Source: a virus. From it: a DNA stretch of 34,333 nucleotides. Of the stretch, positions 11,311-18,263 are shown one piece after another (position 1 is the stretch's first letter; each line of letters starts with the position of its first letter). A program made the position numbers and the translations under genes. Below the pieces are notes generated by a model, which saw nothing but the letters and a program-made list of their open reading frames with translations, was not told the origin of the DNA and did no database searches. The stretch lies in IMG/VR virus record IMGVR_UViG_3300011116_000672, positions 1 to 34,333 of that record. One strand, 5' to 3'.

Positions 11311-13725
11311 CTAGAGCCCCCCGTCCCCCACCGGCGTCTCTGCCGGCGCGGCCGTGCCTGCGTCTAGCCCCTCCACACCCGGCGTCTCCAGCGGTGCGTC
11401 GAGCGGTGCGTCAAGCGGCACCTCTGGTGGCAGCGCCTCCACCGGGGCGCTCTCCAAGCCCATCACCAGGCCCGTCTGCGGGTCACGCACCACGCGGTAG
11501 GTCTTCGGCTGTGGCGGCTGCTTCACCGCTTGCAGCAGCGCCGCCAGGTCGCGCGCCCCGCCACGCGGGCCGGCAAACAGCGGCTGCTGGGCATACTGCT
11601 GCTCCAGCGCGAGCGCCTGCGCCTCATTCTCGGCCTGCTTGTCGAGCAGCACGCCCTTGGTGAGGGCGTCGATTTTCTTCACCTCAATCTGCGCGGCGTT
11701 CTTCATTGCCTGCAGCTGGATGTCGGCCTGCACGCGCATCTGCTCCAACTGCAACTGCGCCTGGTGCTTCGCCTGCTCCGTTTTCACGTACGCACTGGCC
11801 TGCTGCAGCTGCTGCTGGGCCTGCTGCAGCTGCTGCTGCAACTGCGGCACCAGCACCTCAGGCGGCGGCCCCTGCGCGTCGTCGTCGTTTAGATACGGGA
11901 ACATCTGCGCGCGCTGCTTCTTCAGAATCTCCGCAATTTCTTTCGCGCCAGGGAAGTCGCGGAACTTGAAGTAAATCGGGCCGATGAGGGGCATGAGCGC
12001 CGGCGCGGCCGTCAGCACCTGCCCGATCTCCTCGGCGCCCTGCTCCAGACGCGTCTGGTAGTTGCGCCCGATGGTCACCGACACGTTGTAGACGCCGCGC
12101 GAGAGGTCGTACTGCTCCACGCGCCCCGGCCCGCGCGTCGGGCCGCCCATCGGCGCCATCGGCGCGGGACGCGGCCGCCCCTCGCGGTCCCGCACGAACG
12201 GCGCGTTCACCATCACCTGCCGGCTGTCGTCCTCGCCATCGAGCAGCTGCACAATGCGGCCAGGGCGGTCGTAGATGCGCGGCAACAGGTCGAGCACGAC
12301 CTTGGCCTCGTAGGTCATCGCCATCGACGCCAGGTTGTCGAGATAATGGCTCGTCGCCGTGTCCGCCTGCTGCTGTAGCGCCAGCAACGCGCGCCCGCTG
12401 CGCTCGCCGCTATTAATGCGGCCGAGCGAGGGGTCGTAGACAGCGGTGGTCGACTGGATGAACGAGTCGGCCTGCTGCATCAGCGCCATCGACGTGTTCA
12501 TCCGCGAGGCGTCGACCGGCACGCGCTGCGGCGGCGCCGCCGGCTGGCCGGCGATGGTCGTGGGCTTGTATTTCAGGGTGGGAAAGTTGCGCGTGTTCGC
12601 CTGCGCCCACATCTGCTCGTAGCCCTCGTCCTGACCCTCGGCCAGCAGGAACGGGGCGCGCGGCTCCAGCGCCGCAATCTCCACGGCGTTCGACGCCGCA
12701 AAGTTGAACAGCTTCTGGCCGTCCTTGGCCGGGCGAATCATGCCGACGAACCGGCGCTCGCCGTCAAACGGCTGCAATTCCTTGCCGACGACCGGGATAA
12801 TGGGGATGTAGCGCCCGTTCCACTCCTGCGGGGCCGTCAGCTCCTCGACCCCGTTCATCACCGACCACCACACCTTCGGCACTTTCACTGCACGACGCGG
12901 GGCGTCCGCCGGCACCAGCGCGGCCTCCTCGGGCGTCAGCTCATCCGCAAACACGACGCGGCCATCGGCCAGGCCGACATACTCGCGTGCCACCTGCTCG
13001 ACGCGCCAATACTCAGCGATAAGCACCGCGTTCTTGTCGCCGCCGTCCACGCGCACCCAGTCGGGCACCTCGCGCACCAGCGCCCGCAGCGCCTGGTCGT
13101 CGTAGTCCGCGAGGGCGCTCTTGGGATACTCGCGCTTGAACTTGTCGAGGCTGAGCCAGGTGCAGAGGAACGCATACTCGCCGTCGGACCAGTCGGGCAT
13201 CTGCGCCGACGGGTCGAGGTAGACCTGCTCCTGCTGCAGGATGCGCTCAATCACCACCTTCTGGTCGAACGGGTTGCCGCAGTGCTCGTCGTAGACCGTG
13301 TTGACGCGGTAGAACCCCATCCCCGCCTTGACGGCCCGGTCGAACGCCCACCCGCGCGCCAACTGCGCCCTACTGTCGCGCTCGATATGGCGATACAGGT
13401 CTTGCAGCATCGCCGCCGTGTCGGCGTTGGCGTCCTCGCTCACCGGGTGCACGTTCACGCCCAGATGCGCCGCCTTCTGCTGGTTCAGCACAATCTGGAT
13501 GGGCTGGTCGAGCTTGCTGATGCTGAGCGTCGGGCGCGGCGGGATGGCGACATTCCCGACCACCGACCCCTCGCGCGCGCGTCGGCTCTCGGCATCCCAC
13601 TGCAGCTCGGGCACCTGGAACGCGAGGTCGTCGCGCTCCCGGTCGCGCTGCTTTTCATACGCATCGCGCGAGAGCTTGAACCGCTTAATTGCGTCCGCGA
13701 CCGTCTGTGCGTCCTTCTCAGCCAT
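11311..13725 (-). CDS. Portal protein, P22 gp1-like
   Basis: 804 residues from ATG 13725. This ATG shares its A with the terminase stop (TAATG) and has GGAG about nine bases upstream; an in-frame GTG at 13740 is less likely. It forms the dodecameric ring at the capsid vertex through which DNA is pumped. Family signs include RDRERDDLAFQ near the N-terminus, SKLDQPIQIVLNQQKA, YLDPSAQMPDWSDGEY, and YDPSLGRINSGERSGRALLALQQQ in the core. A Gln-rich coiled coil near residues 620-720 corresponds to the long P22 barrel. A Pro/Ala-rich acidic tail follows. It is longer than P22 portal (725). Confidence 0.9.
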   Translation of the reverse strand: MAEKDAQTVADAIKRFKLSRDAYEKQRDRERDDLAFQVPELQWDAESRRAREGSVVGNVAIPPRPTLSISKLDQPIQIVLNQQKAAHLGVNVHPVSEDANADTAAMLQDLYRHIERDSRAQLARGWAFDRAVKAGMGFYRVNTVYDEHCGNPFDQKVVIERILQQEQVYLDPSAQMPDWSDGEYAFLCTWLSLDKFKREYPKSALADYDDQALRALVREVPDWVRVDGGDKNAVLIAEYWRVEQVAREYVGLADGRVVFADELTPEEAALVPADAPRRAVKVPKVWWSVMNGVEELTAPQEWNGRYIPIIPVVGKELQPFDGERRFVGMIRPAKDGQKLFNFAASNAVEIAALEPRAPFLLAEGQDEGYEQMWAQANTRNFPTLKYKPTTIAGQPAAPPQRVPVDASRMNTSMALMQQADSFIQSTTAVYDPSLGRINSGERSGRALLALQQQADTATSHYLDNLASMAMTYEAKVVLDLLPRIYDRPGRIVQLLDGEDDSRQVMVNAPFVRDREGRPRPAPMAPMGGPTRGPGRVEQYDLSRGVYNVSVTIGRNYQTRLEQGAEEIGQVLTAAPALMPLIGPIYFKFRDFPGAKEIAEILKKQRAQMFPYLNDDDAQGPPPEVLVPQLQQQLQQAQQQLQQASAYVKTEQAKHQAQLQLEQMRVQADIQLQAMKNAAQIEVKKIDALTKGVLLDKQAENEAQALALEQQYAQQPLFAGPRGGARDLAALLQAVKQPPQPKTYRVVRDPQTGLVMGLESAPVEALPPEVPLDAPLDAPLETPGVEGLDAGTAAPAETPVGDGGL

Positions 13726-15038
13726 TAAGCCCAGCTCCACTGCGAGGGCGCCACCGTGCCCCCGAACATCTCGTCGACCGTCCGCGTCGGCTTGGCCGGC
13801 GGGGTCTTGTGCCGCGCGGCCAGGCCACGAAACGCATCCGCCGCGTGCGACGCCCAGTCATGCACCGGCGTCGCCTTGAACTCCTGCAGGCGCGTGTTGT
13901 AGTCGCGCCGGTAGTGCATCAGCGCGTCGATGAGCGGCGCGGTTTTCTCGGCGTCAAACCAGCAGCGCGCCAGCAGGAGCCGCGCGGCGTGAATGCCGTC
14001 CTCCACCTCGTTGTGCCCACCCGTGAGGCGCGGCGTCACCTGGAACCGCAGGCCGTAGCTGGCCGCCACTTCCAGGCGGCTCTTGCCGGTGCCCAGCTCG
14101 CGCACGGCGATGTCGTGCGGCGCCCAGTGCGTGCCGTAGGCGTAGCCCCGCTGCTGCAGCACCTGCGCGTAGTGCGGAAAGCCCTCGCCGCTCGCCTCGT
14201 AGAAGTCGACGACGCGCACCTCGCCCGAGCGCAGGCTCTGCGTGAACACGATGCTGGTCGCGTCGCCCATGCCCAGATCCCAGTCGGTGTCGACCGGCAG
14301 CGCCGGGTCCACGGGCACGCGCGTGAGACGCCCGTCGGTGCGGGCCTGCTCCAACTCGCGCGCGTAGATGGCGCCACGCACGGCCGCCGAGAACGAGCAC
14401 TCCCATTCCTGGGCATACTCGTCCGCTGTCATGCTGCGGCGCGCGTCGGCCAGCTCGGCGTCGTCAATCAGGCCCGTTTCGCTCGCCTTGAACTCGAGAT
14501 ACGCCCAGCCGTCGGTGCGCTGCGCGTGCTGCGCCATGTCGTAGAACGGCCCGCGTCCGTTGGGCGTGCCCAGAAACAACGCCTTGCCCTTGCGGTCAGC
14601 CAGCGCCGGACGGAGCACTTCAGAGAACACGTTGTTCTGGTGCATCCCGAACTCGTCGAGCACGACGAAGTCCGCGTAGATACCTCGGAGCGCGTCGGGG
14701 TTGTCGGCGCCCACCAGTTGCACGCGCGCGCCGTTGGGCAGGTTCACCGCCAGGTCGCTCTCGCGCTGCTCGGCGTCGGGAATATCGCGCGTCGCCGCCT
14801 TGAGGTAATCCCAGGCCACCTGCCGGGCCTGCAGGCGGGTCGGCAGCACAATGTAGCAACGCGTGCGCGGGAGCGCGCTTTCGAGCGCGACAAACACCGC
14901 GTGATGCACGGCCGCGACCGTTTTCCCCATGCGGCGGTGGCAGACGGCCACCACGAAGCGGTGCTGCTCCAGCGCCTGGTGCAAGGCCACCTGCTGCGGG
15001 CGTGGCGCGTAGCCGAGGTCCATCTCCACCTCGGTCAT
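13725..15038 (-). CDS. Large terminase subunit (TerL)
   Basis: 437 residues; the ATPase-nuclease motor that packages DNA through the portal. The ATPase domain shows Walker A at C33-HRRMGKT-40, Walker B VVLDE at 125-129 and the coupling motif LGTPNG near 156-161. The nuclease domain has candidate acidic residues D252/D254 (in TDWDLGMGDATS), D309 (APHD) and D394/D401 (HDWASHAADAFR). The ATG at 15038 overlaps the stop of the preceding ORF as ATGA. The gene precedes portal, as in most tailed phages. Confidence 0.93.
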   Translation of the reverse strand: MTEVEMDLGYAPRPQQVALHQALEQHRFVVAVCHRRMGKTVAAVHHAVFVALESALPRTRCYIVLPTRLQARQVAWDYLKAATRDIPDAEQRESDLAVNLPNGARVQLVGADNPDALRGIYADFVVLDEFGMHQNNVFSEVLRPALADRKGKALFLGTPNGRGPFYDMAQHAQRTDGWAYLEFKASETGLIDDAELADARRSMTADEYAQEWECSFSAAVRGAIYARELEQARTDGRLTRVPVDPALPVDTDWDLGMGDATSIVFTQSLRSGEVRVVDFYEASGEGFPHYAQVLQQRGYAYGTHWAPHDIAVRELGTGKSRLEVAASYGLRFQVTPRLTGGHNEVEDGIHAARLLLARCWFDAEKTAPLIDALMHYRRDYNTRLQEFKATPVHDWASHAADAFRGLAARHKTPPAKPTRTVDEMFGGTVAPSQWSWA

Positions 15039-15256
15039 TGCACGCCACCGGCCGGCGTCATCAGCTCCAGCACCAGGAGGCGCCCGCTCTCCTGCAAGAT
15101 GAGATCGTCGGCCGCGTCGTCAATCGACCGCTCTAGCAGCACCTCGCCCTCTTCCACGAGGCGCAGCGCCCACTGGCGGCCGGCGCGCACGAGATACACC
15201 TGCTGCTGACGCGCGGCGTCCTCGTGTAGAAGATATGAGCCAGGCCGCAGCGTCAC
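15035..15256 (-). CDS. Small protein between terminase genes
   Basis: 73 residues from GTG 15256, which makes a GTGA overlap with the small-terminase-like stop. The sequence (TLRPGSYLLHEDAARQQQVYLVRAG..., then LLERSIDDAADDLILQESGRLLVLEL) looks like a small mixed alpha/beta protein. No family is recognised. The ATGA overlap at its end with the large terminase implies coupled translation and perhaps a packaging role. Confidence 0.6.
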   Translation of the reverse strand: MTLRPGSYLLHEDAARQQQVYLVRAGRQWALRLVEEGEVLLERSIDDAADDLILQESGRLLVLELMTPAGGVQ

Positions 15257-16182: not shown

Positions 16183-16626
16183 TTACTTCCGCCGCGACTT
16201 GCGGGGCGATAAGTAATCAGCCGCCGCACGCAGCCGCTCCGGCGAGTCACCGGCGTGACCAAGAACGCGATTGCAAGATGTGCAGAGTAGCCCGCGCACT
16301 TCACCCGTTTGGTGGTTGTGGTCCACGTCAAACATCCTCTGCGGGGATTCGGGCCGCTGGCAGATGGCGCAGCATCCATTCTGTTGAGCCAGCATCCTGT
16401 TGTAGTCCGCGAACGTGACCCCATACTTTTTCAGGAGGTGGCGCTCGCGTTCGCTATCGCGGTTGGCCCAGTATCGCTTCCGGTCATAGCCGACTGCCGT
16501 GACATATGCCTTATGAGCTGACGTCTTGCAGGGCTTGCACCGCGCCATATACCCGTGCTTCTTACTGCGGTCGCGGAAGAACTCGGTTAGTGGCTTCGTC
16601 TCGTTACAGGCCGTGCAAGTCCTCAC
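16183..16626 (-). CDS. Endonuclease VII-type HNH nuclease
   Basis: 147 residues from GTG 16626, with GGGAGG six bases before the TAG-GTG junction. An N-terminal zinc site (CTACNE ... CKPCK) is followed by a His-Cys nuclease core: CCAICQRPESPQRMFDVDHNH, then GEVRGLLCTSCNRVLGHAGDSPERL. This is the recombination endonuclease VII pattern, in which D-H of VDHNH and the final N form the active site and four Cys bind zinc. T4 endonuclease VII resolves branched DNA before packaging; many phage copies are free-standing and could also be homing-type. Confidence 0.85.
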   Translation of the reverse strand: MRTCTACNETKPLTEFFRDRSKKHGYMARCKPCKTSAHKAYVTAVGYDRKRYWANRDSERERHLLKKYGVTFADYNRMLAQQNGCCAICQRPESPQRMFDVDHNHQTGEVRGLLCTSCNRVLGHAGDSPERLRAAADYLSPRKSRRK

Positions 16627-17632
16627 CTAAGACCTCCCTATACGCCTTGATGAACTCCGCGGCAAGCGGCGGCACAATGGCGTTGCCGTACCCGCGCAGT
16701 CGTCCCACTCTGGCGGGTATCCCATGAGCCAGCGGGAAAAGGCCGGGTTCAGTTGGCCGGGCTTTGCCGTCTCGACAGGCGAGCCATTCGAGGTCAGACC
16801 AGCCTGACGCGGCAACTGGTCGAGCCGCGCACGTGTGCTTCCGTCCGGGTTCGTGGCTTCCGTCGCCATCCCCGGCGAGTCCTTCCAGTCCCGACTGCTC
16901 GGCGTGGCCCACGTCGCCAAGCTCGCCGCATCGACCAGCGTGTGGCCCGCGTGGATACCAGTCGGCGGAATCCTGCGCCGTGTCGCCGTACTGTTGCGGC
17001 TGTTGCTCGCATCGCCGACGGTCGCCGTCGGCCAACTCGCCAGCAGTGCAAAATCGTCCAGATTGCTCCCGTGCCGAGTCTCGCCCATTGCCCTCTTTAC
17101 TTGCCCGCCCTGGTTCCCGTCCCTGCTCTGCGCGGTCGGCCACGAACCACAATCGCTGCCGGATGTGCGGTGCGCCGACGCTCGCAGCAGGCAGACCGAC
17201 CGCCCCGACGGCGTAGCCTTCTCTTTCCAGGTCATCGCAAACCAGATCGAGCCATCCGTGATTAATCGCTGCTTCAACCTGCTCACCAAAGACGACGTGA
17301 GGGCGGCACTCGCGGATGAGGCGAAACCACGCCGGCCAAAGGTGGCGCGGATCGTCGGTGCCGGCTTGCTTGCCCGCACTTGAGAAGGGCTGGCAGGGGC
17401 AACTGCCGGTCCAGACTGGCCGGTCGTCGGGCCATCCGGCGAGCCGCAAGGCGTAGGACCATCCCCCGATCCCGGCGAAGAAGTGGGCTTGTGTGTACCC
17501 TCGGAGATCGTCGGGCCGAACATCGATAATTGACCGCTCATCTACATCTCCCGCCGCGATGTGCCCTGCTGTGATGAGTTCACGCAACCAGGCCGCGGCA
17601 AAGGGGTCATGCTCGTTGTAGTAGGCTGCCAC
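16604..17632 (-). CDS. DNA C5-cytosine methyltransferase
   Basis: 342 residues from GTG 17632, with AAGGA six bases upstream. Motif I FAGIGGW (52-58), motif [15 protein letters not shown] with catalytic C80, motif VI as GEQV (116-119; usually ENV), motif VIII QRLWFVA (159-165) and motif [16 protein letters not shown] (313-327) are all visible. The target-recognition region (about 170-290) is Gly/Arg/Asp-rich and low in complexity. It probably protects phage DNA from host restriction. A 304-codon ORF in another frame overlaps most of the gene. Confidence 0.85.
16627..17541 (-). CDS. Overlapping gene inside methyltransferase (MSGQLSMFG type)
   Basis: 304 residues from ATG 17541 in a different frame from the methyltransferase. 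It has its own GGGAG site six bases upstream and its TAG stop abuts the GTG of endonuclease VII. It starts [11 protein letters not shown], has [13 protein letters not shown], several [15 protein letters not shown] segments and ends [19 protein letters not shown]. From memory this pattern recurs as hypothetical proteins in many proteobacterial prophages beside cytosine methylases. Long shadow ORFs are common in this GC-rich DNA, so length alone proves nothing; the ribosome site, the abutting junction and the recalled family support it. Confidence 0.5.
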
Positions 17633-17634
17633 GC

Positions 17635-17823
17635 TTAGTCCTTCAGGTTCCGGCGCGGCGCCCGCACTAGCGCACCGGGCAGCTCGTGCGTCAGATAGCG
17701 CTGCCGGCAGATGCGGCACTCGCGCAGACGGGTCACGCCGCGCTCGGCCGTGACCCGGTAATGCACCACCCGCGCCCCGAGCGCCCCGCACGCCGGGCAC
17801 GGCACCCCTCGACGGCGCGTCAC
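17635..17823 (-). CDS. Small zinc-ribbon protein
   Basis: 62 residues from GTG 17823 (GTGA overlap with the gene before). CPACG (9-13) and CRICR (36-40) form a four-Cys zinc ribbon similar to the N-terminal ribbon of NrdR or Ogr-like phage activators; the region between is basic. It lacks the ATP-cone domain of NrdR. A DNA-binding regulator is plausible. Its stop is followed within three bases by the methyltransferase start. Confidence 0.6.
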   Translation of the reverse strand: MTRRRGVPCPACGALGARVVHYRVTAERGVTRLRECRICRQRYLTHELPGALVRAPRRNLKD

Positions 17824-18263
17824 CGCAACGCCCCCTGGTCCCGCAGCTCGATGGCGATGCGCCGCACCGTCGCGTAGCCCACGCCCAACTGGCGCGCAAT
17901 CCCGCTCGGCGACGTGCCCCCGCGCAGCGCCTGCGCCACTCGCTCCACCAACTGCGCGCGCGCCACTACGCGGTCACGCTGCCACTGCTGCGTGCAGTCT
18001 TCGCACCGCACGCGCCCTTCGTTGACGCGCGCGAGCGACAGATGCGCTCGGCAACCCACGCACACCTGCTCACTGAACCGGCGAGGCCCAACATGGCCTC
18101 TCCCAGGCCCGCCACGCGCCGATGTCGACGGGGAGGTGCCCAACCCCCCGAGCCCCTCGTCGCGCAGCACGTAGCCACGGCTACGCCACCCACTGCCGTC
18201 ATCACCCACGAGCTCATGGAGCGACGACCGCCCCGACCACACCACCGTGTACGCCTGCCTCAT
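17820..18263 (-). CDS. Zinc-finger / HTH protein
   Basis: 147 residues from ATG 18263 (ATGA overlap). The N-terminal half is Gly/Ser/Arg-rich. A four-Cys zinc site (CVGC, then CEDC, about residues 69-91) is followed by a C-terminal helix-turn-helix (TSPSGIARQLGVGYATVRRIAIELRDQG, about 116-143) like those of resolvase or Sigma-70 region 4. The combination suggests a DNA-binding regulator, perhaps of late transcription, but this is inference. Confidence 0.55.
   Translation of the reverse strand: MRQAYTVVWSGRSSLHELVGDDGSGWRSRGYVLRDEGLGGLGTSPSTSARGGPGRGHVGPRRFSEQVCVGCRAHLSLARVNEGRVRCEDCTQQWQRDRVVARAQLVERVAQALRGGTSPSGIARQLGVGYATVRRIAIELRDQGALR

Follow-up and report, generated by a model that had tools for sequence, protein, structure and literature searches.

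Within the window, as we call the whole 34,333-nucleotide stretch of viral DNA analysed here (IMG/VR virus record IMGVR_UViG_3300011116_000672), one locus very probably encodes a single C5-cytosine methyltransferase as two polypeptides read from overlapping frames, of which frame A would be catalytic and frame B would carry target recognition and motif IX. The enzyme is probably made of two overprinted proteins because selection on hundreds of relatives assigns the part that chooses the methylated site to frame B.

Frame A is the methylase frame, running on the minus strand from a GTG start at 17632 to its end at 16604. Frame B is an ATG-initiated ORF of 304 codons on the same strand (16627..17541); it is frame A +1, so that the whole of B lies within A. 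Its ATG is preceded by GGGAG and then 6 nt (the sequence 5′ of the ATG is ATCGCGGCGGGAGATGTAG), with a TAG in frame with B immediately 5′ of the ATG, and its TAG stop (16629-16627) adjoins the GTG (16626) of an endonuclease VII ORF. The features of the locus are as follows.

16604..17632, minus strand: frame A, C5 DNA-cytosine methyltransferase, catalytic large-domain polypeptide, 342 aa with a GTG start (PF00145, phrog_363, HhaI alignment)
17462..17479, minus strand: frame A motif I (FAGIGG), from the sequence, columns 52-57 being conserved
17381..17398, minus strand: frame A motif IV (PCQPFS, with the catalytic Cys), from the HhaI alignment
17138..17173, minus strand: frame A motif VIII region, from the HhaI alignment
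16667..16690, minus strand: frame A motif X (YGNAIVPP), from the sequence, overlapping the end of B (+1 frame) within A281-318, which is constrained in both frames
17548..17552, minus strand: Shine-Dalgarno (SD) sequence GGGAG of frame B, from the sequence
16627..17541, minus strand: frame B, nested +1-frame gene for the proposed specificity/motif IX polypeptide (stop depletion, start enrichment, pN/pS, phrog_1008)
17170..17316, minus strand: frame B residues 76-124, predicted helix and beta-hairpin (AlphaFold blocks, pLDDT mostly 82-87)
16756..17142, minus strand: frame B residues 134-262, three WPTP-type modules (WPTAQSRD.., WPTATVGD.., WATPSSRD..), units shuffled among relatives, with B-dominant substitution
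16693..16755, minus strand: frame B residues 263-283, motif IX-like segment, near-invariant in 212 loci (hhalign to actinophage in-frame methylases)
16183..16626, minus strand: endonuclease VII-like gene, given as context (PF02945, E=4.4e-27)

Just upstream of the methylase, a small ORF (17635-17823, minus strand) has a NrdR-like zinc ribbon (PF22811, E 4e-7), and a further ORF (17820-18263, minus strand) has a weak C-terminal helix-turn-helix match (PF13384, E 1e-4, under the curated cut-off). Elsewhere in the window, a 506-codon ORF (13689-15209, plus strand) lies antisense to a terminase large subunit-like ORF of 437 codons (13725-15038, minus strand) and is probably a high-GC shadow ORF.

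Frame A matches phrog_363 with E=3.7e-87 and PF00145 with E=2.6e-19, the latter only over profile positions 66-167 of 324, with the match ending at motif VIII; the HhaI alignment likewise spans residues 70-167. Motifs I, IV and VIII of the C5 catalytic domain are present in A by the PF00145 and HhaI alignments and, with YGNAIVPP included, A carries the motif set of the M.EcoHK31I-type large subunit (I-VIII and X). In 117 of the 119 anchored loci, A is open as far as motif X. Between motifs VIII and X, the chain of A has no segment corresponding to motif IX; an IX-like segment is found in B instead.

The protein read from frame B matches phrog_1008 (E=1.2e-30), while most of it is not recognisable to Pfam as a methylase domain. 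AlphaFold prediction of B alone gave a mean pLDDT of 58, the helix and hairpin of residues 76-124 being ordered and the rest of the chain being of low confidence. The hairpin is followed by modules of ~27-72 residues, each opening W-x-T-P and numbering 1-7 per protein, and related modules recur at varying positions and across subfamilies (WPTPCSSDNRDRG.. in window-type B, WPTPSASDNRDRG.. in C72C1-type B). B ends in LNPxxxxWLMG[LY]PxxW, almost invariant across the 212 loci, and as a sequence pattern this segment (LNPxxxxWLMGYPxxW) fits motif IX of C5 methylases. By hhalign it aligns with the in-frame methylases of actinophages (P 95.8%, E 6.5e-9, 21 columns); a sequence search against solved structures in the PDB, for which the segment is too short, gave no significant match. 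An earlier note on this DNA had singled out the 304-codon ORF with its GGGAG, ATG and stop against the endonuclease VII GTG, which the sequence confirms, and had described repeated WPTP-like units and a characteristic C-terminal end, both of which are there. Its comparison with many ‘hypothetical proteins’ near prophage methylases also holds, as phrog_1008 matches B and GenBank records annotate B. The B of a Paenibacillus polymyxa plasmid methylase (L413, 1296-2786) comprises four modules, and the +1 frame there shows the motif IX-like end twice, which suggests a duplication; in the epsilon15 methylase (L420, 698-1867), motif X is directly preceded by an additional segment (ARLGRVEPGVARVASSNRVGRLKGYGNAIN) that looks like a duplicate of that part.

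In many actinophage methylases, the catalytic domain is continued in frame by LPTP modules, by RLxxxFxEWMMGxPxGWVT, which is motif IX-like, and by motif X. The C-terminal 90 residues of a modelled member have pLDDT mostly of 85-96, M.HhaI is the best match of the whole model, and the LPTP modules of the fused enzyme are predicted to be disordered (pLDDT <50). In Firecracker, L186 and L203, the corresponding part, with motif X, forms a separate +1 ORF that overlaps the catalytic ORF at its end, and L202 (fused) and L203 (split) have the same C-terminal part. In methylases of Vibrio and Alteromonas plasmids, one ORF continues past motif X into a B-like domain (the domain is present in 31 records, of which six read through). 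This tandem-fusion domain aligned with C72C1-type B over 48 columns (hhalign P 96.8%, E 2.7e-10), whereas against the B profile of the window the motif alone matched (24 columns, P 65%); our search for tandem-fusion relatives found them in plasmids only and none in viruses or phages. Among individual actinophage loci, Mycobacterium phage Ochi17 (L164, MK359307.1, 1525-2284) has its methylase halves split by a frame change and annotated as two ‘DNA methylase’ genes, and the methylase of its relative SG4 (L170) is intact. Fused actinophage methylases keep a +1 ORF of ~110 codons (MDLFSGHSVPYSETLPTSGMTRNG..) overlapping motif VIII (L173, 651-2186), possibly a remnant of frame B, and the Propionibacterium phage B22 methylase (L175, 84-2183) has a long insertion of intein-like look in its catalytic region.

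It could be argued that B, although a real overlapping gene, makes a separate protein (e.g. anti-restriction, regulatory or DNA-binding) that merely sits inside the methylase gene. The selection on B would be compatible with any function, its start is its own, and Pfam is silent on methylase identity for most of its length. We nevertheless consider this unlikely, as the IX-like segment absent from A sits in B, the B-type part is fused in frame to catalytic domains in actinophages with a related domain in tandem in the Vibrio and Alteromonas plasmids, the module array is located where C5 methylases have their target-recognition domains, and B is never found apart from A in the subfamily. To collect relatives, we scanned IMG/VR twice, once with A and once with B, which gave 160 loci; together with the window locus, all 161 encode both A and B, with B always +1 to A. 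A scan of GTDB genomes with the B profile gave 80 loci, mostly in Proteobacteria with some in other phyla and again all +1; a solitary frame B was looked for within the subfamily and not found among the 160 viral and 80 genome loci.

Judged by its stops and starts, frame B, nested +1 in the methylase gene, is a real gene. The tested stretch of B is stop-free in 100 of the 161 loci, where synonymous shuffling of A predicts 4.2; the same shuffling detects no stop depletion in the +2 frame (observed 11.5 stops per locus, against 10.4 expected). Over A codons 41-300, the 130 non-redundant phage relatives have 0.0000-0.0004 B stops per codon, where ~0.011 are expected, and stops reappear on both sides of this interval. 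An in-frame ATG for B is available in 127 of 129 loci, falling at A column 37 in 85 (36 expected) and at A column 31 in 52 (32 expected); stop avoidance begins at both of these columns, and stops are enriched just upstream. The chosen B start is preceded by an SD match of at least 4 nt in 104 of 128 loci. Taken together, the ATG enrichment, the upstream stop enrichment and the SD matches indicate that B most likely starts by itself. Both its start and its stop are conserved, the end of B lying a median of 29 nt from the A stop in the 114 loci where B ends within A. These observations bear on a second alternative, in which programmed +1 frameshifting from A would deliver the C-terminal half of B as part of a single-chain methylase, with A alone as the other product. 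B is indeed A +1, and a chain joining A (I-VIII) to B (modules, IX) would look like the single-chain methylases, but B possesses an ATG and a ribosome site that are conserved, stop avoidance sets in at that ATG, far upstream of any useful shift point, and A remains open to motif X in nearly all anchored loci; we regard such frameshifting as very improbable.

Substitution patterns show which frame is under selection in each region. We calculated pN/pS from 112 close pairs, using each sequence at most three times. In the non-overlapped N-terminus, pN/pS is 0.15 for A and 2.26 for B, and over A41-100 it is 0.16 for A and 1.93 for B, so that the first ~60 residues of B are under little selection of their own. 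The values approach each other over A101-165 (A 0.36, B 0.80) and are reversed in the target-recognition region, A166-280, at 0.32 (0.29-0.35) for B and 1.18 (1.09-1.29) for A, the intervals being approximate because pairs share sequences. Over A281-318, which holds the C-terminal motif, both frames are constrained (A 0.34, B 0.47). Codon-position rates in the target-recognition region are.276/.137/.140, compared with.080/.054/.183 in single-frame actinophage methylases, whose corresponding region has an ordinary codon-position pattern; the fastest position is A position 1, which is the third position of B. By pN/pS, with the codon-position rates in agreement, protein-level selection between motif VIII and the C-terminal motif is on B and not on the annotated methylase frame, and purifying selection is found in both frames over A281-318 and A101-165. 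We rejected by the synonymous-shuffle and pN/pS tests the idea, now of negligible probability, that B is a shadow ORF, open and similar among relatives only through the conservation of A and high GC: high-GC genomes do leave alternative frames open and the window has many long ORFs in non-coding frames, but the constrained stretches lie tens of standard deviations beyond the shuffle nulls, the outcome is the same at GC ~0.50, and both the codon-position pattern and the pN/pS of the two frames are inverted. The earlier suggestion of a large, conserved overprinting with both frames in use is therefore supported, with the refinement that B would be the second half of the methylase itself and not an unrelated gene. 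Frequent second-frame stops in homologues and constraint in one frame only, named beforehand as observations that would tell against it, were both looked for and neither was seen. That the overlap accounts for the low-complexity target-recognition region of the methylase is true in a stronger form, given the pN/pS of 1.18 for A and 0.32 for B there.

The arrangement recurs in other subfamilies. In C72C1-type and Lacticaseibacillus phage R23.9-type methylases (GC ~0.5), B is stop-free and stops resume after it, with 2 stops over codons 61-240 in one subfamily where 189 are expected and 0 in the other where 85 are expected; both have B-dominant substitution in the target-recognition region. The SD and ATG of B are near-identical across C72C1-type loci, and window B is homologous to C72C1-type B over 203 columns (hhalign 99.7%, E 4e-27) while the A proteins are 30% identical. 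Lactobacillus phages thus share the arrangement, and it probably recurs in bacterial, cyanobacterial and archaeal plasmids, where B-like open frames were seen as single cases, one plasmid methylase each, in Paenibacillus, Bacteroides, Leptolyngbya and the archaeon Methanomethylovorans. Well-known laboratory phages also carry the nested frame, in E. coli phage N15 gene 58 and in the epsilon15 cytosine methylase. Some GenBank records annotate B alone and others B and A, those of K1 phages and Salmonella phages naming B an overlapping methyltransferase or ‘Mte8-like protein’; in Salmonella phage W5_chr3 (L169, PP996006.1, 1485-2414), only B is annotated (Mte8-like) and the catalytic frame is unannotated. 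Our search of the open-access literature found no paper describing the overlap of methylase and B.

In the two-polypeptide enzyme that we propose, A would provide the catalytic large domain (I-VIII), cofactor binding and motif X, and its stretch between VIII and X would serve chiefly as a spacer whose frame stays open so that X can be read. B would be translated independently, from an ATG with a ribosome site within A, to give a partner of ~300 aa, built of a helix-hairpin scaffold, tandem exchangeable WPTP modules that may read DNA in target recognition, and the motif IX-like segment. If A and B are expressed together and assemble into the active enzyme, B would determine the methylated site or sites, and phage DNA would presumably be shielded from host restriction. 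More broadly, we think it reasonably probable that the locus belongs to a large and ancient class of C5 methyltransferases, spread over phages and plasmids as well as bacteria and archaea, in which the specificity half is a +1 nested gene with a shuffled module array and multi-site methylation, and of which most database entries describe half the enzyme. To our knowledge, long same-strand nested overlaps with clear two-frame selection are rare in double-stranded DNA genomes; the window-type overlap is ~300 codons long and is seen at hundreds of loci. Such an overlap would account for the unusual, low-complexity target-recognition regions that many phage methylases have. An annotated ‘DNA cytosine methyltransferase’ expressed without the nested gene would then be incomplete as an enzyme, and the overlap provides a setting in which module exchange alters two overlapping proteins at once. 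Frame B proteins were already known to databases (phrog_1008; K1-phage and Salmonella phage records); what is new is the selection evidence, the module arrays, the breadth, and the inversion by which B outweighs A in the target-recognition region.

Among known systems, M.EcoHK31I has a small subunit read from an alternative frame inside the gene of its large subunit, which would make the locus in the window a viral relative in kind. M.EcoHK31I consists of two polypeptides, the large with motifs I-VIII and X and the small with motif IX (PMC3404938), a partition that A and B would share; they are likened to it by motif layout and not by sequence. The system of the window differs in being viral, in having a B of ~300 aa with several modules, and in that selection puts the target-recognition region in B; the predicted M.EcoHK31I target-recognition domain is reported to be in the large subunit (PMC3404938), which speaks against our reading. 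M.AquI (alpha/beta) has its catalytic half and its target-recognition/motif IX half on separate polypeptides (PMC3404938). Firecracker gp6/gp5, L186 and L203 share that partition, their second ORF holding IX as well as X. Motifs IX and X occur together on the second polypeptide in actinophage L176, L186 and L203, whereas the window has motif X in A, with an overlap that spans nearly the whole gene. The phrog_1008 and K1-phage ‘Mte8-like’ proteins are frame B proteins, labelled only as DNA methyltransferase, with no dual coding, selection or two-subunit reading attached. Multispecific phage C5 methylases of the SPR and phi3T type have tandem exchangeable target-recognition modules between motifs VIII and IX; the modules of the window are alike in being tandem and exchangeable, but theirs lie in a single chain and those of the window in the +1 frame, on the other chain. 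Finally, the ShiLan phage methylase contains an out-of-frame HNH, a mobile insertion of disjunct distribution (PMC11855218), and so likewise has an alternative-frame ORF in a phage methylase, but B is neither an insertion nor an HNH and is conserved across its family.
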